NCBI GenBank assembly: GCA_023957775.1
Contig: JAMLGR010000016.1
Coordinates: forward strand, 1 to 64,000
Origin: Fimbriimonadaceae bacterium
Lineage (GTDB): Bacteria > Armatimonadota > Fimbriimonadia > Fimbriimonadales > Fimbriimonadaceae
Reading direction: 5' to 3'
DNA length: 64,000 nt
In this document: piece by piece, positions 52,677 through 64,000 of the stretch
How positions within the stretch are numbered: position 1 is the stretch's first letter
How the letters are laid out: each line of letters begins with the position of its first letter
Notes under the pieces: generated by a model
Database searches by the model: none
What the model was told of the DNA's origin: nothing
Seen by the model: only the letters and a program-made list of their open reading frames with translations
Translations under genes and position numbers: made by a program

Positions 52677-52750
52677 GTCTCGCTCGCTTGTCGGTTCGTT
52701 AGGGATGGGGTGCCTCGGTCCGGGGGTGCCCCTTTCTCTTGTTTGGCCTG

Positions 52751-52936
52751 CGCGTCCCGATGGAATCGGGAAGGTCGCCGGCCGTTCCCGCCTCGGGGGT
52801 AGAATCTCCTTTCACGTCGTCGGGGCGTGGCGCAGTTTGGTAGCGCGTCCCGATGGAATCGGGAAGGTCGCCGACCGTTCCCGCCTCGGGGGTAGAATCT
52901 CCTTTCACGTCGTCGGGGCGTGGCGCAGTTTGGTAG
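52751..52936. repeat. 93-bp tandem repeat containing a tRNA 5' half
   Basis: Two near-identical 93-bp units start at 52751 and 52844. Each has a 'tcccgatggaatcggga' hairpin, a leader and the first 30 or so bases of tRNA-Pro(GGG). Only the last is continued by a complete tRNA. The unit ends match the start of the next unit. Confidence 0.85.
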
Positions 52937-52990
52937 CGCGCTTCCATGGGGTGGAAGAGGTCGCACGTTCGAATCGTGTCGCCCCGACCA
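52914..52990 (+). tRNA. tRNA-Pro(GGG)
   Basis: Acceptor CGGGGCG pairs with CGCCCCG, D-stem GCGC/GCGC, anticodon stem CTTCC/GGAAG surrounds ATGGGGT (anticodon GGG), T-loop TTCGAAT, and CCA is encoded. Its 5' half is duplicated upstream and its 3' half downstream at 61710. Confidence 0.95.
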
Positions 52991-52991: not shown

Positions 52992-53311
52992 GATTTCGAA
53001 CCTAAAACTCCCACGTATCCGGTGTGAACCCCTTGGATTCTTCAGCGAGTCTCTCAAATTTCTCTCAGTAAATTGAGAGACCTGATGAGAGACTCATCGT
53101 CGAAACCGCTCATTCCAGGTTCAGTTCTGGGCCAATGACCTCTTCCGCACCGTGGAAGAGATCCTCCCAATCGTCTCGGCATGAGGTCGTTGCCGTGAGG
53201 ACCGTCCAGTACGCAACGAGCGAAGTTGGCGCGGGGCGAAGACGTCGTGGGGACACCGAAGTCCCCATTCGTCATTTTCGCTGAACCAGTAAAATTACCG
53301 GCTATTCCTGA
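52992..53311. other. Leader region between tRNA-Pro and the rhs promoter
   Basis: No supported gene. It contains a conserved small hairpin (ctctca/tgagag, about 53065-53082). The region is homologous, at a rough 75-80 percent by eye, to 61759-61998 and is therefore part of the duplicated unit. Confidence 0.6.
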
Positions 53312-53342
53312 TTGACATACCCCCCCCCCAAGTCCTTATCCT
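53312..53342 (+). promoter_or_regulatory. Promoter with poly-C spacer, candidate phase-variable (copy 1)
   Basis: TTGACA (53312-53317) and TATCCT (53337-53342) are separated by 19 bases that include an unbroken run of 10 C (53320-53329). A ribosome-binding site (ctggagg) and the rhs ATG follow within 25 bases. The same promoter at 61999 has 12 C. Slippage of the run would change spacer length. Confidence 0.7.
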
Positions 53343-53367
53343 AACCAGTACCTGGAGGTCTTAGGAC

Positions 53368-56300
53368 ATGCGTATCGGATTGGTTGCCAACCGCCTTCTC
53401 TCACTCGTTTTGTGCGTCACGCTGCTGCTGGGCAGCTCTTGGTCCGGCATCGCGTACACCTACTCTGGGATCTCGACCGCGCTGCAGGGTTTCCGTCTGC
53501 GGCCCGGCCAGTACACCGAAGCCCCCAAGGCACCGTATCTCGGCGCGCATCCGAGCCGGGACCCGCGCGGCAGAGGCATTTGGAGCAAACAGACGCTTTC
53601 AGATTTCGAGACCGCCAATGTGGACCGGCTTCAAGCCTCCCTCGAGCCCTCGCCAATGGCGGGCATGCACACCCTCTCGGTCGACCCGGCGCCGGGAACG
53701 ACCTTTCCCTGGGAGGGAGCGTTCCCGTCCCACTACGGCATCGTCAACTCCGGTTGCGGCAACAAGCTGACCGCTGTGCCGCTGCTTTCTTGGAAGTGCA
53801 GGGGCGGCATGGTCCTGGACTTCACGCTCTACAACAACTCGCAATCGAGCTATGTCGACGAGCTGGGGCACCACTGGACTTGGACCTACGACATCTACAT
53901 CAACAACCTCACGGGCAATCCCATCGTCCACTGGGGCGACGGACTCTGCATCGCGTTCACCAAACACGTCGATGGTGGAACGACGACCTACATCGCCCCG
54001 GCCGGGACGTACGACGATCTGGTCAAGAACGGAAACGACACCTGGACGCTAACGAGGAAGGACGGCACCGTCTACTCGTTCAACGACGATGGGTTCTGCG
54101 GGCAGATCGAAGACCGCAACGGCAACGCCATCACGCTCTCGCTCGATGCCAACAACTACGTCACCACCATCACCGACCCGACGGGCAGGGAGATCGATCT
54201 GGATTACGACGGCAGCCACCGGATCACCTCGATCACGGATCCCTTGGACCGGGTGTGGGAGTTTTCCTACAACGGCTCGAACGAACTGACCGAGATCGAG
54301 TGGCCGGATCTGGATTCGGTCGCTTACTCGGACACTTTCACCTACGGCACGGGCCACGTCATCGCCAGCCATACGGACCGGCGCGGAAAGACCTGGTCGT
54401 TCACCTACAACACCGACGCCTCGCTTGCCACCGAGACCGACCCGCTGAGCCACCAGGTGAGCGTGAGCTACTCCTCCGGCGCCACGACCCGAACGGATCC
54501 GCTCTCTCATACGCGCGTGGACAACTATTCCAGCGGCAAACTCACGAGCCGCGTCGACGAGTCGAGCTTCTCGGTCAGCTTCACAAGCCGCGATTCGAAC
54601 AACAACGTCACCGCAATGACCGACCGGCGGGGCAAGAGCTGGTCGCTAACCTACGACTCGAGTGGCAACGTCACCTCGGTCACCGATCCGCTCTCGCACG
54701 CCAAGACCTTCACCTACAACTCGTTCAGCCAGGTGCTCACGGCCACGGACGAGCTGGACAACGAGACGGTGTTCGAGTACGACGGCAACGGGAATCTGGA
54801 GACGGTCACCGATCCAGTGGACCGGACCATTGAGACCAACGGCTACGACGCCTACGGCCAGATCACCTCCAGCTCGAACTACCTCGACGAGGAGACCACG
54901 CTCGGCTACGACACCGACGGAAACCTCACGAGCATCACCGATCCGCTCTCAAACGAAACCGTCCTGGTCTACGACGATCTGGGGCACCTGACGAGCGTGA
55001 CCGATGCTAACTCCAACACCGAGGAGGTGGAGTACGACGATTGGGGCCGTCCGGTTCTGTTCACCCATGAGGATGCCTCCACGTTGGAGCGCACGTACCT
55101 GGTGACCGGCCAGATCCTGACGCAAACCGACGAGCTGAGCCACACCACGACCTACGCGTACGACAACGCCGGGCGCCCGACCAGCGTGACGAACGCCGAG
55201 AGCGAAACGGAGAGCTACGGTTACGACGCGGCGGACAGGCGCACCACCGTGACCAACGGCCGCGGCAAGACGCGAACCTACACGTTCACGAACCGCGGCG
55301 AGCCTGCCACGCTCACCCTTGCCGACAGCTCGGTGGAGCAGTGGAGCTACAACGGCAATGGGGACGTCACGGCCTACACGAACCCGCTGTCCCAGGTGAT
55401 CTACTACACGTTCGACGATGCGGGCAGGCAGACGGCGGTGGACTACCCGGCCGGCACGGACACTTCGTTCGGCTACGATGGCGCGGATCGGCTCGCATCG
55501 ATGACCGACGCCACCGGTACCACCGAGTGGACCTACGACGACGCCTCCCAGGTCACCGAGCTCGAAACGCCGCAGGGCACGATGGACTACACCTACGATC
55601 TGCCAGGGCGCAGGGCGACGATGGTCCAAGCCAGCGGCACGACGACCTACACGTACGACGATGCCGGGCGGCTCGTTTCGCTCGAGAACCCGTTTTCGGA
55701 GACCACGGAGTTCGAGTACGACGACGGCGGGCGCCTCACCCAAGAAACCTTCGATTCCGGCGTCTACACGCTCTACGGCTACGATTCGCGCGACAGGACC
55801 ACCTCGGTGGTGCACAAGACCTCGGGCGCCTCGGCGATCTCCTCGGAGAGCTACACGTGGGACGATGCGGGGAACCTTGAAGAGAAAACCGTCGATACCG
55901 TGACCACGACGTACGGCTACGACGACATCGACCAGCTTGTCAGCGAGTCGCGCAGCGGCTACAGCGCGAGCTACACATACGACGCCAACGGGAACAGGGC
56001 CTCCAAGACTCTGAACGGCACCACGGAGACCTACACCGTGGACGATGCCGACAAGCTGACCACGATCACGAGCGGCGGCAACACGGTCAAGAGCTTCACG
56101 TACGACACGGCGGGCCGGACGACCGCCGTGACCACCAGTGCGGGGACGACGAGCCTCACCTACGACTACGAGGGGCGGATCACGCAGATCACGTACCCGA
56201 GCGCGGCGACCAACACGTTCACGTACAACGGCCTGGACACCCGGGTCGGAAAGGTCGACAGCTCGGGAACCAGCACCTATAAGCGCGACGGTGCAGGTGT

Positions 56301-57117
56301 GCTGGCTCCCGTGCTCTCGGACGGAACGACCGCCATGACGCCCGGCATCTCCTCGCGGATATCGAGCACGACGACGTTCGACCATCACGACTATCTGGGC
56401 ACCACGAGTCTCCAGACGGCCGCGAACGAGTCTACGGTCTCGACCCGCACCTACGATGCCTTCGGCATGCTGACCTCGACGAGCGGCTCACCCAAGACAG
56501 GATTTGGATACGCGGGCGGATACGGATACCAGGGGGATGCCGACAGTGGCCTCACGCTTCTCGGCCATCGCTACTATGATCCCGGCACGGGAAGGTTCCT
56601 GACACGCGATCCGGTCAAGGCCGGAAGGAATTGGTATAGTTACTGCGATGCGAGCCCGACAAGGTACGTGGATCCGACGGGCTTTGATGCCTGGTGGAAC
56701 CATGCTTTTGACGGCGACGTGTGGGAGAAAGGGCTCGCAACTTCGGGAGCAGCTCTCGGCTCAGCTCTGAGCGACATCGGGGCCGAGATCATCAGCCCAG
56801 TAACTGAATTGATCGGCCGCGGTCAAATTGATGGATGGGATGGAGGCACCCATCGGGATGATCCGGGATTCGAATTCTCTAAAGGATCTTGGAATGTTGC
56901 CATCGTTGCGATTGAACTCATTGGCGGTCTGAAAGCTGGAGGAATTGAAGGTAAGGTCGAACTCCATGGTCCGCATCATTCATTCGGCAAAAGAGGAAAG
57001 TTGCCCCATTATCAGACAATTATCTGGCGAAAAGGGGTCGATGGTTCCCACAAGATTCTGCCTCGCATCCCCGTGCCAAAGTGGTTCTTTAACTTCTTCA
57101 AGGGCTGGAGAAGGTGA
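53368..57117 (+). CDS. Exported RHS/YD-repeat protein with C-terminal toxin domain
   Basis: A 1249-aa protein with signal peptide (SLVLCVTLLLGSSWSGIA). From about residue 230 it is built of YD repeats (TYDSSGNVTSVTDPLSHA type, about 30 units), which form the RHS shell. The conserved RHS end (GYQGDADSGLTLLGHRYYDPGTGRFLTRDP, split here) leads to RYVDPTG near residue 1102. After that a new domain of about 145 residues begins, with a His-rich block ELHGPHHSFGKRGKLPHYQ and a basic end. GC falls sharply in this tip. Such tips are toxins in known RHS proteins; the activity here is not assigned. A probable immunity gene overlaps. Confidence 0.9.
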   Translation: MRIGLVANRLLSLVLCVTLLLGSSWSGIAYTYSGISTALQGFRLRPGQYTEAPKAPYLGAHPSRDPRGRGIWSKQTLSDFETANVDRLQASLEPSPMAGMHTLSVDPAPGTTFPWEGAFPSHYGIVNSGCGNKLTAVPLLSWKCRGGMVLDFTLYNNSQSSYVDELGHHWTWTYDIYINNLTGNPIVHWGDGLCIAFTKHVDGGTTTYIAPAGTYDDLVKNGNDTWTLTRKDGTVYSFNDDGFCGQIEDRNGNAITLSLDANNYVTTITDPTGREIDLDYDGSHRITSITDPLDRVWEFSYNGSNELTEIEWPDLDSVAYSDTFTYGTGHVIASHTDRRGKTWSFTYNTDASLATETDPLSHQVSVSYSSGATTRTDPLSHTRVDNYSSGKLTSRVDESSFSVSFTSRDSNNNVTAMTDRRGKSWSLTYDSSGNVTSVTDPLSHAKTFTYNSFSQVLTATDELDNETVFEYDGNGNLETVTDPVDRTIETNGYDAYGQITSSSNYLDEETTLGYDTDGNLTSITDPLSNETVLVYDDLGHLTSVTDANSNTEEVEYDDWGRPVLFTHEDASTLERTYLVTGQILTQTDELSHTTTYAYDNAGRPTSVTNAESETESYGYDAADRRTTVTNGRGKTRTYTFTNRGEPATLTLADSSVEQWSYNGNGDVTAYTNPLSQVIYYTFDDAGRQTAVDYPAGTDTSFGYDGADRLASMTDATGTTEWTYDDASQVTELETPQGTMDYTYDLPGRRATMVQASGTTTYTYDDAGRLVSLENPFSETTEFEYDDGGRLTQETFDSGVYTLYGYDSRDRTTSVVHKTSGASAISSESYTWDDAGNLEEKTVDTVTTTYGYDDIDQLVSESRSGYSASYTYDANGNRASKTLNGTTETYTVDDADKLTTITSGGNTVKSFTYDTAGRTTAVTTSAGTTSLTYDYEGRITQITYPSAATNTFTYNGLDTRVGKVDSSGTSTYKRDGAGVLAPVLSDGTTAMTPGISSRISSTTTFDHHDYLGTTSLQTAANESTVSTRTYDAFGMLTSTSGSPKTGFGYAGGYGYQGDADSGLTLLGHRYYDPGTGRFLTRDPVKAGRNWYSYCDASPTRYVDPTGFDAWWNHAFDGDVWEKGLATSGAALGSALSDIGAEIISPVTELIGRGQIDGWDGGTHRDDPGFEFSKGSWNVAIVAIELIGGLKAGGIEGKVELHGPHHSFGKRGKLPHYQTIIWRKGVDGSHKILPRIPVPKWFFNFFKGWRR

Positions 57118-57524
57118 TGCTCATTGAAGTGAGTGACCCACGTGAACTCGGAATAATAACTGATGTGCTTCATGATCACTTCTTCTCTCTGCCCTCAGTT
57201 TTGTCTCAGAGAGGAGCAGTCGTTATCGTCGAATTCAAAGAGGAACAAGGCTTCCTCAAGAAGAGATGGTCGCCTAGGTCAGAATATCTTACGATACACC
57301 ACGTTCGTTTCATCGAAGTGAACGACTCGCAACAAGTAAGACTATATGACGTGAACGAACTAATCTACATGGATGGTGTCTTGAGAATCAAGACGGGTAT
57401 TACCCTGAAGCTCTTGTTTCACGTGGACTCACTGCATCTGACTCTGCGGACGGAGTTGGGAGGTGACTCAGAGCCAGGCGCGCTACCGGGGGTGCGCGGA
57501 AAGGAACGGAGGACAGACCGTTAG
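57117..57524 (+). CDS. Candidate immunity protein for the RHS tip
   Basis: A 135-aa soluble protein with no signal peptide. The ATG overlaps the rhs stop (TGATG). Low GC like the toxin tip, and unlike the YD-repeat part. The fold looks alpha/beta (GAVVIVEFKEEQGF; LKLLFHVDSLHLTL). Position and size are those of RHS immunity genes; no family is recognised. Confidence 0.6.
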   Translation: MLIEVSDPRELGIITDVLHDHFFSLPSVLSQRGAVVIVEFKEEQGFLKKRWSPRSEYLTIHHVRFIEVNDSQQVRLYDVNELIYMDGVLRIKTGITLKLLFHVDSLHLTLRTELGGDSEPGALPGVRGKERRTDR

Positions 57525-58865: not shown

Positions 58866-59245
58866 TCGCGTTTCCCTACCCCCTTCCAAGTTCCGGATGG
58901 AATCTGCCTGGTAACGGCGAGTTTGAAGACTCGCCGTTACAGCCCCTGAACTTGCATCTTGGCACTGGCGGTAACGACTGGTATCTATCCAGCGCCGCCG
59001 ACTCGTTTGAGGTCTGGGCGATGTACAAACCACCATCCGCCGTTCAGAACCAGGCAACAACCTGGGTCCCGTTTGCGAAATACTCATGGACTTGGACCGG
59101 GCTGGCCGACAAAACGAGTGGCAGTTGGGTGCTCAGTTCCCAGAGTGGCGGACCAACGACCCAGCCGAATTTCTGGAAGTTCTTCCCAGAGTGGAACACT
59201 TTCTCGCCTAGTCCGTTTCAATTCATAGGAGTGCCACCCCAATGA
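58866..59245 (+). pseudogene. 3' fragment of a paralogue of the exported protein at 62148
   Basis: Its frame gives PLPSSGWNLPGNGEFEDSP, then LGTGGNDWYLSS and ends FPEWNTFSPSPFQFIGVPPQ, matching the last 125 residues of the protein at 62148 almost throughout. The 5' three quarters are missing. The stop still overlaps the TPR gene start (ATGA), as in the complete copy. Confidence 0.8.
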
Positions 59246-60093
59246 GACGATTGAACTGTCAGCACCTGGTCATGCTCGCCGTCTTGGCGCTTGCGTCGCC
59301 GGCGTCTGCACAACAGCGGTTTTTTCCGCCGGATCCGGTGGAGGTCGCGAAAGAGGCGCGGATACGCGAGCTCATCGAACAGGGGCGTGAGCAGGAAGCA
59401 ACCGGCAATGTGCAGACCGCAATCGCGAAACTGCAGGACGCCAGTGCTGTAGAAGCGACCCGATCGGGAGGTTTCTTCTCGTGGGCCCGGCTCATGTTGG
59501 CGAGGGTTTATTTGCGCGCGGGACGCGACGTCGAGGCCATCGAGGCTTACAAGCACGTGTTTGCCTGGAACGCCGCCAAGGGCGATTTGGAGCCCGGCTT
59601 TGGCGACTTCGTCAAATACGCGATGGAGTTCGCGATTCTGCTGGCAAAGAGCGGTCGCCCGGAAGAGGCGAAGGCCATGTACTATTTCGGTCTGCGCAAC
59701 TTCAACCCCGAGAAGGGGCGGTTTGAGCCCGCTCCCTTCCTCACCGTGTTCGACCCCGAGGAAGAAGGCGAGTGCTGGGAATACACGCCCGAGAGGCTCG
59801 AGGCGGCGGCCCTCATGATTCAAATCATGCAGGGCGGGATGTTGAACCGTGCGACCCATGAGGAGACCTCTGCGGTGCAGTTGGCTCCGAAGGTGCGCGA
59901 ACTCGTCCCAGACTGGTTCTATCCCTATTTGTATCGTGCGGCACAGGGTTGGAACAGCGAACAAACATCCTCCGATTTAGCGCTGGCGCAGGCCCTAGCC
60001 AGAACCAGCGTTGAAAGGGAGGTGGTCGAGTTGTACCGACGGCAGCTGGCCGAACACAAAGCCCTGCTTGAAGCCGCGGACCTTGGCTTTTGA
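59242..60093 (+). CDS. Exported TPR-like protein (copy 1)
   Basis: A 283-aa protein with signal peptide (LVMLAVLALASPASAQ) and helical TPR-type repeats (RELIEQGREQEATGNVQTAI; AGRDVEAIEAYKHVFAW; SGRPEEAKAMYYFGL). The paralogue at 63755 has the same start. In both copies the gene overlaps the preceding exported-protein gene by ATGA, so the two products probably work together. Function unknown. Confidence 0.75.
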   Translation: MRRLNCQHLVMLAVLALASPASAQQRFFPPDPVEVAKEARIRELIEQGREQEATGNVQTAIAKLQDASAVEATRSGGFFSWARLMLARVYLRAGRDVEAIEAYKHVFAWNAAKGDLEPGFGDFVKYAMEFAILLAKSGRPEEAKAMYYFGLRNFNPEKGRFEPAPFLTVFDPEEEGECWEYTPERLEAAALMIQIMQGGMLNRATHEETSAVQLAPKVRELVPDWFYPYLYRAAQGWNSEQTSSDLALAQALARTSVEREVVELYRRQLAEHKALLEAADLGF

Positions 60094-60793: not shown

Positions 60794-61144
60794 GTGAGGC
60801 GAGAATTCGAGCCGTTCGACGAAGAGGTGATTCTTGCCGAGTTGGAGTCGCTCCCGACGAAGGACCGCTCGAAGCTGGCCGCGCTGATGGAGTTCTACGA
60901 GGAAGTTGAAACCGGGAATCCATACCCGGCTCAGATCGACCTCTATGACCATGGAATCTACAGAATCAGGCATGCCAAGGCGAGCTATCAGGGGCGCGCG
61001 CTGTTCTGCGTATCGGAAGCCCGGGAGGGATATCAGAAGTTGACCCTCCTCGTTGTGTACAAGAAGGAATCGCACAAAGTGCCCGCCGCCATTCTCCAGA
61101 CCGCGCGGCGTCGAATGGAACAGCACAAGAAGGGAAAGCCATGA
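60794..61144 (+). CDS. RelE/HigB-like toxin (Gp49 family)
   Basis: A 116-aa protein of the phage-derived Gp49/HigB type (PF05973-like): ELESLPTKDRSKLAALMEF, DHGIYRIRHAKASYQGRALF, LLVVYKKESHKVP, QTARRRMEQH. Such toxins cut mRNA on the ribosome. GTG start. It overlaps the antitoxin gene by ATGA. Confidence 0.82.
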   Translation: MRREFEPFDEEVILAELESLPTKDRSKLAALMEFYEEVETGNPYPAQIDLYDHGIYRIRHAKASYQGRALFCVSEAREGYQKLTLLVVYKKESHKVPAAILQTARRRMEQHKKGKP

Positions 61145-61428
61145 GTTTCATCAAGAAGTACATCAAGGAACAGTGCGAGGCCGATTCTGAGTTTCGGGCG
61201 GAGTACGAGGCGGAAGCCCTTCGGCTCAAACTCGTTCGCGCGCGAGAAGCAGCGGGCCTGACGCAACGCGAACTCGCCGAGCTCTTGGGCGTGTCCCAGC
61301 CCAGAATCGCGCAGGTCGAGCGTGGCAGCAGGCCGATGAGCACGATGTTCCTTCTGCGCTATGCGGCGGCAGTCCACATGAAGCTAGAAGTCTTGCCGCG
61401 CAGATCTGCAAAGGCATCGACCGCCTGA
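61141..61428 (+). CDS. XRE-family antitoxin
   Basis: A 95-aa protein with a helix-turn-helix (AGLTQRELAELLGVSQPRIAQ) in its second half, forming a HigBA-like module with the upstream toxin. The HTH presumably autoregulates the promoter at 60782. Confidence 0.85.
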   Translation: MSFIKKYIKEQCEADSEFRAEYEAEALRLKLVRAREAAGLTQRELAELLGVSQPRIAQVERGSRPMSTMFLLRYAAAVHMKLEVLPRRSAKASTA

Positions 61429-61709: not shown

Positions 61710-61758
61710 TCCATGGGGTGGAAGAGGTCGCACGTTCGAATCGTGTCGCCCCGACCAG
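61710..61758. repeat. 49-bp direct repeat, tRNA-Pro 3' half (att-like, right)
   Basis: Identical to 52943-52991. The 5' half of the tRNA is absent here, so this is not a functional tRNA. Confidence 0.85.
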
Positions 61759-61998
61759 ATTTTGAACCTAAAACTCGCCTTTGCGCGCCTTCAGCGCGCC
61801 GTAAGTCACTCAATTATCTCTCAGCGGATTGAGAGACCTGAGGAGTGACTCATCGTCCAAACTGCTGATTCCAGATTCAAACTTGAGCCAATGACCTCTT
61901 CTGCACCGTGGAAGAGGTCCTCCCCAGCGACCCGGTTGGACACCGAAGTCCTCACCTGTCATTTTTGTCGAACCAGTAAAATTTCCAGCCCGCCTGGA
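61759..61998. other. Duplicated leader region (copy 2)
   Basis: No gene. Diverged copy of 52992-53311 with the same ctctca/tgagag hairpin and the same order of motifs. Confidence 0.6.
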
Positions 61999-62031
61999 TT
62001 GACATACCCCCCCCCCCCAAGTCCTTATCCT
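61999..62031 (+). promoter_or_regulatory. Promoter with poly-C spacer (copy 2, 12 C)
   Basis: TTGACA (61999-62004) and TATCCT (62026-62031) are separated by 21 bases containing 12 C (62007-62018). Otherwise identical to the promoter at 53312 through ctggaggtcttagg. Confidence 0.7.
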
Positions 62032-62058: not shown

Positions 62059-62151
62059 ATGCGTTTCGGACTCATCGCGAACCACCCATCAGCGGACCGA
62101 GGCTGTGCCAAGTCCTCGTCCGCCAAGTGCAAGGTGAGGGACGACGGATGA
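62059..62151 (+). pseudogene. 5' stub of an rhs gene
   Basis: MRFGLIAN matches the rhs start MRIGLVAN at 53368; after about 8-10 codons the sequences diverge and the frame ends at 62151. The stub's stop overlaps the ATG of the next gene, so it may now act as a leader peptide. Confidence 0.6.
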
Positions 62152-63758
62152 AGCTCAGGCTACTGTTGGTTTCGTTCTCCATGCTCCTCGTTCTCACCGG
62201 TCTGGTCAGGGCAGGTGAGTACGTGCTTAAGCCAACCGACCCCACCCTCCCGCACAACCCATATGGAGGCACGATCGCTTGGAATGGGAGTTCAAGCAAC
62301 TATGGCTCCTACGAAACTGGATATGGTTCCGGCATCGCCGGAGCATCGTACGTCAGCTGCAGCGGTACGATCACTACGGTGTATGAATGGCAGCGGGATG
62401 AGATCGAGGATCCGAACGACCCCGGCGAGATGATCGATGATCCACTCGATAACCCTCCAGCCGAAGTCGTGTCGAAGCAGTATTGTTTTGCGATGGCCGT
62501 TGCAACTTCAGTGGCCTCTAGTCCAATCGCGGTCTCAGACAACGGCTTGGGCTTCGAGCCGGAGATTGGCGGGTATGGCCTCGGAGCCTATTCGATCTGT
62601 GAGGGAACCCTCTACACGAAGATCGCGGGAGGGCAGGAGATCACTCTAACGTGCACCCCGAGCGCTTACGCGGAATCGGATGCCACTGACGCCACGGCTT
62701 CGGTCCTGTATCGTTCGGCGATCATTGTGCCCAAGGTGGAGATTCTCGGGGCCACGCCCCTCACCTCTCCACTGGATCTCAAAGTGCAAACCGGCCAGCA
62801 GATAACGTGCTGGGTAACGCAGACCACCACCGATCCGATTCCGAGCGAGCCGCTGCCGCTCGCAGCGTACTCTTGGGGCACCGAGGCGCCGCCTGGGGTT
62901 GAGCTGGTGGATCCCATGCTGTTCAAGAGTTACACCCACACCACATCCCTTGGCAAGCTCAACCACCACGCTCGTTCAGATGTTATTCAGCCGACGTACA
63001 GCTTCTTTACAGGGGACAACGGAGTCATAGTCGTGAAGTGCGTCGTCACCTTCGGACCCGCGCCAGAAGGTTCGATGTATGCCGGTGGCCTTCCATCCTT
63101 CACGGCCAAGTCCCCAATACTTACGTCGAAGCGACCGATAGGGGATTTTGGGGCAGTGGCGTCCGGTCAAGTCGTGCTCAACGATCCTGACAACTTCCAA
63201 TTCGGTACGGCAGCGCTAAACGGACAGAGGTGGACGGGCGTCCACATCGATCCGTCCCCTTTTTCCGCTGAGGGGCAAGGATGCTTTGTTCAGCTGATCA
63301 GCGCCCAGCGAGACGTTTACAGGAACACCTCACCGGGGTTGCCCTCTCATTTCACTTACTCCACAAGCGGTGCGCTTGACACGGCGTTTCCCTACCCCCT
63401 TCCAAGTTCCGGTTGGAATCTGCCAGGTGACGGCGTTTTTGAAGACTCGCCGTTACAGCCCCTGAACTTGTATCTTGGCACTGGCGGTAACGACTGGTAT
63501 CGGTCGAGCGCGGACGATTCATTCGAAGTCTGGGCGTTGTACAAGCCACCGTCCGTTCAGAATCAAGCGACAACTTGGGTTCCGTTTGCGAAATACTCAT
63601 GGTCGTGGACCGGGCTGGCTGAGAAGACCGGTGGCAGTTGGGGGATGACTGCCGGGAGTGGCGGCCCAACGTCCGGACTTCAATCCTCTAAGATCTTCCC
63701 AGAGTGGAACACTTTCTCGCCTAGTCCGTTTCAATTCATAGGAGTACCGCCCCAATGA
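62148..63758 (+). CDS. Large exported protein of unknown family
   Basis: A 536-aa protein with signal peptide (LLLVSFSMLLVLTGLVRAG). The body is Gly/Ser/Thr-rich and beta-type (GASYVSCSGTITTVYEW; ITLTCTPSAYAES; CWVTQTTTDPIPSEP), with a C-terminal block that recurs in the fragment at 58866. No domain recognised. The stop overlaps the TPR gene by ATGA. It now lies directly behind the poly-C promoter. Confidence 0.7.
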   Translation: MKLRLLLVSFSMLLVLTGLVRAGEYVLKPTDPTLPHNPYGGTIAWNGSSSNYGSYETGYGSGIAGASYVSCSGTITTVYEWQRDEIEDPNDPGEMIDDPLDNPPAEVVSKQYCFAMAVATSVASSPIAVSDNGLGFEPEIGGYGLGAYSICEGTLYTKIAGGQEITLTCTPSAYAESDATDATASVLYRSAIIVPKVEILGATPLTSPLDLKVQTGQQITCWVTQTTTDPIPSEPLPLAAYSWGTEAPPGVELVDPMLFKSYTHTTSLGKLNHHARSDVIQPTYSFFTGDNGVIVVKCVVTFGPAPEGSMYAGGLPSFTAKSPILTSKRPIGDFGAVASGQVVLNDPDNFQFGTAALNGQRWTGVHIDPSPFSAEGQGCFVQLISAQRDVYRNTSPGLPSHFTYSTSGALDTAFPYPLPSSGWNLPGDGVFEDSPLQPLNLYLGTGGNDWYRSSADDSFEVWALYKPPSVQNQATTWVPFAKYSWSWTGLAEKTGGSWGMTAGSGGPTSGLQSSKIFPEWNTFSPSPFQFIGVPPQ

Positions 63759-64000
63759 GACAATTGAACTGTCAGCACTTGGTCATGCTCGCCGTCTTGG
63801 CGCTTGCGTCGCCGGCGGCTGCCCAACAGCGGTACTTTCCGCCGGATCCGGCGGAGGTCGCGAAGGAAGCGCGGATAAGCGAGCTCATCGGCCAGGGGCA
63901 TCAGGAGGAACGAATCGGCAACGTGCCGGCTGCGATCGCGAAACTGCAAGACGCCTGCGTCGTCGAAGCGACCCGATCAGGAGGTTTCTTCTCGTGGGCC
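63755..64000 (+). CDS. Exported TPR-like protein (copy 2), cut by window end
   Basis: The first 82 residues match the protein at 59242 (LVMLAVLALASPAAAQQRYFPPDP split; EARISELIGQGHQEERIGN). Signal peptide present. The 3' end is beyond the window. Confidence 0.75.
   Translation, partial: MRQLNCQHLVMLAVLALASPAAAQQRYFPPDPAEVAKEARISELIGQGHQEERIGNVPAAIAKLQDACVVEATRSGGFFSWA

Follow-up and report, generated by a model that had tools for sequence, protein, structure and literature searches.

The Rhs modules and their surroundings

The window analyzed here comprises the first 64,000 nucleotides of contig 16 in a 27-contig, 3.51-Mb draft assembly of a Fimbriimonadaceae bacterium, whose relatives among named records are Fimbriimonadaceae/Armatimonadota. 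On its forward strand, a gene at 53368-57117 encodes an Rhs (YD-repeat) protein of 1249 amino acids with an exported N-terminus, an Rhs-associated core, and a variable C-terminal tip. The protein matches PF05593 (E=1.4e-86), TIGR01643 (E=3.2e-69), and TIGR03696 (E=1.1e-15, the last of these above its cut-off), and so combines the YD/RHS repeats and the Rhs-associated core that characterize Rhs polymorphic toxins. A second full-length Rhs gene is located beyond the end of the window, at contig positions 65399-69118. Residues 1-1109 of the two proteins share 93% identity, and beyond that point their tips are without similarity. A conserved core followed by unrelated tips is the usual layout of polymorphic toxins. 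The tips gave no match to known families or toxin domains; of the initial description of an RHS toxin gene, the Rhs part is thus secured by repeats and core, and the toxin part follows from the polymorphic Rhs architecture, with no toxin domain recognized. A small forward-strand ORF overlapping the Rhs stop (57114-57524) is a candidate immunity gene by position only, and it matched no known family.

A further module within the window has retained the promoter but lost the gene. Here, sequence and alignment reveal an Rhs reading frame broken off after some ten matching codons, leaving a truncated start of about 30 codons (62060-62152, forward strand) with a terminal TGA that overlaps the ATG of the following gene. 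That gene (62148-63758, forward strand), now located 3' of the copy-2 promoter, encodes an exported protein that is unrelated to Rhs and matched no known family.

The modules are preceded in all three cases by the 3' end of a tRNA-Pro(GGG) gene. The intact tRNA gene is found at 52914-52990 on the forward strand, with the repeated 3' part starting at 52943; the corresponding repeats are at 61710-61763 before copy 2 (forward strand, 96% identity over 54 nt) and at 64994 before copy 3. Additional repeats of this 3' end are present at 70536 and 70675 of contig 16. With these serial repeats as boundaries, the region falls into units, and three of them share a 5' end that carries the Rhs promoter. 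An integrase-bearing mobile element behind the tRNA-Pro repeats was considered and rejected, with no integrase among the scanned ORFs. Other features of the neighborhood are a 93-base tandem duplication (52750-52935, 99% identity) immediately 5' of the tRNA gene and extending into it, and a Gp49-family (DUF891) ORF that overlaps an HTH_31/HTH_3 ORF at 60794-61428 as a HigB/HigA-like toxin-antitoxin pair. In addition, there are two duplicated segments with 86-90% identity: one follows the first Rhs gene (58868-59332), and the other lies where the gene for the copy-2 exported protein ends (63384-63845).

A C-tract between the conserved boxes of a probable promoter

Directly before the first Rhs gene, the forward strand reads TTGACA-TA-CCCCCCCCCC-AAGTCCT-TATCCT at 53312-53342, with a -35 box (53312-53317) and a -10 box (53337-53342) that are both the same in all three copies. 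The 19-base spacer holds an unbroken run of 10 C (53320-53329), and a 25-base leader with the ribosome-binding site GGAGG (53343-53367) connects the -10 box to the ATG. Copy 2 repeats the identical pattern at 61999-62031 on the forward strand with a run of 12 C at 62007-62018 and a spacer of 21, and direct reading at both places bears out what the initial annotation had described for this pair of promoters. Copy 3, beyond the window's end at contig positions 65340-65371, precedes the second full-length Rhs gene and has 11 C at 65348-65358, TGGTCCT in place of AAGTCCT, and a spacer of 20. All three sites therefore place a homopolymer between -35 and -10 (C10, C12, and C11), as in opc and porA. 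A terminator-like hairpin is present 5' of the first promoter (53247-53268, forward strand). An RNA structure in the leader was considered as well and rejected, as it folds worse than shuffled sequences.

Four observations make it very probable that the TTGACA/TATCCT site is the promoter of the Rhs gene. First, the pattern TTGACAN15-24TATCCT occurs at three sites in the 3.5 Mb genome, all of them copies of the Rhs promoter, and at none in the reversed control. Second, the 11 other TTGACA-N12-24-TATNNT pairs of the genome have spacers of 17 (five), 18 (four), 19 (one), and 24 (one); the share of 17-18 spacers (9 of 11; binomial P ~2e-6 against uniform) indicates that the usual spacing rule is valid in this organism, in agreement with the earlier proposal that a spacer of 17, reached at 8 C, would be optimal. 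Third, the region from the -35 box through the ATG is 93-98% identical among the three copies, whereas the preceding 60 bases are 75-81% identical, and the contrast between boxes plus leader and flank is significant for two of the three copy pairs (Fisher P = 0.0002, 0.009, and 0.09). Fourth, the Rhs genes of relatives carry TTGACA and a -10-like TA---T box at a distance of about 16-19, directly 5' of the start. One Rhs copy of the Armatimonadetes bacterium Uphvl-Ar2 is illustrative: its promoter reads TTGACA-TCCCCCAAATGCTCGCGC-TAAACT, followed after exactly 25 bases by ATG, as in the window, and its spacer begins TCCCCC after TTGACA.

The idea of tracing this promoter through related genomes was borne out for the position of the TTGACA box and failed for the exact sequence, which matched in none of 60 relatives. 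The same promoter was not found in viral contigs, the Rhs N-terminus, used as the only query, had no matches in the genome collection, and no second genome of the same genus was present among those searched.

It could be argued that errors of assembly or sequencing produced the C counts, or that the boxes are no promoter at all. Homopolymer lengths are error-prone in a draft of 27 contigs, some of which start in or near a poly-C run; TATCCT matches the -10 consensus at 4 of 6 positions, and a promoter scan restricted to spacers of 16-18 finds none here. The tract would nevertheless be real at three places even if its lengths were wrong, and both the conservation and the relatives' TTGACA at the same position favor a promoter, so that we regard this explanation as highly improbable. 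With regard to the draft itself, two of its contigs begin in or near long poly-C runs (G000:C24:3-15 and C15:51-61), which suggests that such tracts broke the assembly at these contig starts.

Long C and G runs in the genome, the phylum, and the Rhs family

Runs of at least nine C or G are found as 23 tracts across the genome, up to 20 bases long and mostly intergenic. Apart from the three in Rhs promoters, 20 such tracts remain, and none of them has TTGACA directly 5' in the flanks examined. A C-run per se is ordinary for this genome, which argues against a special meaning of the promoter tract; its placement between two promoter boxes is not ordinary.

Across 291 Armatimonadota genomes, TTGAC...C8...TATNNT occurs at about 34 places and the poly-G version (G8) at 22, each with a single hit in the reversed control. 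Outside the present genome, 25 of 31 poly-C sites have spacers of 15-18, and the C8 sites precede genes for transporters, an aldo/keto reductase, pilin-like proteins, and others. As C8 mostly occurs with the usual spacing and upstream of ordinary genes, the tract alone is no proof of phase variation, and we reject the spacer C-run as a general hallmark of switching, given that C8 and G8 occur in promoter-like sites phylum-wide. Judged by these motif matches, homopolymers recur in the spacers of promoter-like sites across Armatimonadota. A near-consensus example from another Fimbriimonadaceae genome (G011:C7:25676-25709, L100) reads TTGACA-CG-C16-GCGA-TATAAT with a spacer of 22, which 11 C would reduce to 17, and is located six bases 5' of the ATG of a small lipoprotein gene with a CxxC motif.

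Another promoter module, which spans roughly 80 bases, is conserved mostly in family f45 and in other Armatimonadota (L225, L228-L234, L240, and L241). It has the form TTCTAGCACA-N8-11-TTGACAGCAAG (or TTGACTTCTAC)-C8/9-N2-8-TATAAT-N6-GTAACTTTTGCAACAGTCTC and precedes symporter-like and enzyme genes, and its sequence suggests an undescribed regulon whose promoters include poly-C in the spacer. By analogy, it could be proposed that the Rhs C-tract is a fixed functional element of a regulated promoter, either a regulator site or a DNA-shape element that possibly joins misaligned boxes, and that there is no switch. The C8-9 in the spacer of the f45 module, before transporter and enzyme genes, would fit such a role, as would meningococcal NadA, which shows that repeat tracts may act via regulators (PMC2791445). 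The length of the Rhs tract differs among its three copies, however, the tract is missing from the Rhs promoters of relatives, and no box is common to the Rhs promoter and the f45 module; a fixed element is therefore very unlikely.

To place the Rhs tract within its gene family, 76 Rhs 5' ends in Fimbriimonadaceae were surveyed for tracts of at least nine C or G near the start. Four genera carry one: that of the present genome, G027 (C10), G095 (C10), and G013 (G19 beside an assembly gap). Uniform placement predicts 0.24 even when each 9-mer is counted as a tract (Poisson P ~1e-4 for four), and if tracts were locally five-fold enriched the expectation would rise to about 0.43 (P ~0.001); the test is post hoc, and two of its cases, G095 and G013, are ambiguous. 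Such a tract is missing from the majority of the family's Rhs genes and from every one inspected outside the family. In G013 (G013:C3; L034, L158), the G19 run adjoins an NN gap within the Rhs N-terminal region.

The arrangement in G027 is different again. Two Rhs paralogues (DAIDHV010000001.1 and DAIDHV010000010.1; L134 and L108) have tracts of C10 and C7 and share a conserved promoter, ribosome-binding site, ATG, and first codons. The frame opened by the ATG reaches a stop right after the C-tract, and Rhs runs on in another frame; with C10 and with C7 alike, the paralogues are out of frame. This layout could represent a translational switch in its off state, or two genes with another start for Rhs, and we consider the pair to be candidate translationally phase-variable genes.

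A rival explanation is an ordinary Rhs promoter subject to neutral homopolymer drift. The C-tract would have grown by slippage, like many others in this genome, its lengths would differ through divergence of the duplicated copies without any selection for switching, and weak relics may be all that is left of two or even all three promoters. This is a real possibility. It would account for the 20 further long C/G tracts outside promoters, the 12-20% upstream divergence of the copies, the retention of a promoter in copy 2 without its Rhs gene, spacers of 19-21 that are off the optimum, and the absence of the tract from most Rhs relatives. It is less easily reconciled with boxes and a leader that are nearly constant despite a diverged flank, with a tract that is pure in all three copies, and with the recurrence of long G/C tracts near the Rhs starts of other genera.

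Proposed random switching of Rhs and its known counterparts

We propose, with the scales about evenly balanced for and against, that Rhs is subject to promoter phase variation through the spacer poly-C. In this model, the polymorphic-toxin-like Rhs gene has a promoter of the housekeeping type, part of whose spacer has turned into a slippable C-tract; slipped-strand mispairing there would alter the number of C, the distance between -35 and -10, and thereby Rhs transcription. At 8-9 C, the predicted spacing of 17-18 would give a strong promoter, and the assembled 10, 11, and 12 C, with spacings of 19, 20, and 21, would be weak to off. Rhs might then be switched on and off at random between cells, each of the three copies independently. 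Paralogue lengths of 10, 11, and 12 and spacers just past the optimum favor phase variation, and support also comes from three other genera, in which runs of at least nine G or C are found close to the start of Rhs. It counts against switching that every copy misses the predicted optimum, a state that decaying promoters would also produce, and that both G027 paralogues are out of frame. This promoter stands out from other C-runs through its three paralogous copies with differing lengths, all just past the optimum, in a gene family that has long G/C tracts at some other 5' ends. Three parts of the model are inferred from sequence: that the promoter is active, that the tract slips in vivo, and that switching has been selected.

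More tentatively, it can be hypothesized that Rhs genes of Fimbriimonadaceae are contingency loci, in which slippable 5' poly-C or poly-G has arisen independently in several genera, within the promoter spacer here and at the coding start elsewhere. Free-living bacteria that are no known pathogens would then deploy their toxins at random as a form of bet-hedging. To our knowledge, the source organism itself is not a pathogen. The known cases of homopolymer-based random switching mostly concern surface antigens in host-associated bacteria. If the proposed switch is real, a device of the opc/porA kind would act on a new gene family in a new phylum, which would suggest that bacterial competition and the burden that toxins impose on their carriers can select for the same device in environmental Armatimonadota. 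No report of phase-variable Rhs genes was found in the open-access literature, subscription papers being outside the search.

Among the closest counterparts is opc of Neisseria meningitidis, for which the original promoter work is reportedly that of Sarkari et al. in 1994. The premise of the initial annotation, that homopolymers in the spacer are a known phase-variation mechanism in opc and porA, agrees with the literature, which adds fetA (PMC2791445, PMC3447861). In opc, 11 C give lower and 12 C high expression, such that a change of one base matters (PMC3447861), and in porA and fetA the unstable homopolymer between -10 and -35 is thought to alter sigma-factor binding (PMC2791445). The window promoter resembles opc in its C-run between -35 and -10, and differs in belonging to another phylum, in serving Rhs and not an adhesin, in its three copies per genome, and in a predicted optimum of 8-9 C. 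With porA and fetA of Neisseria it likewise shares a homopolymer between the boxes, the genes being different. Translationally phase-variable genes with 5' homopolymers, exemplified by Helicobacter canadensis (PMC2823697), find their likeness in G027, where the C-tract is located between the conserved ATG and the Rhs frame, whereas the window tract is in a promoter and not in coding sequence. Finally, the window Rhs has the YD repeats, the Rhs-associated core, and the conserved core with unrelated tips of Rhs/YD-repeat polymorphic toxins, from which it differs in having no recognized toxin domain.
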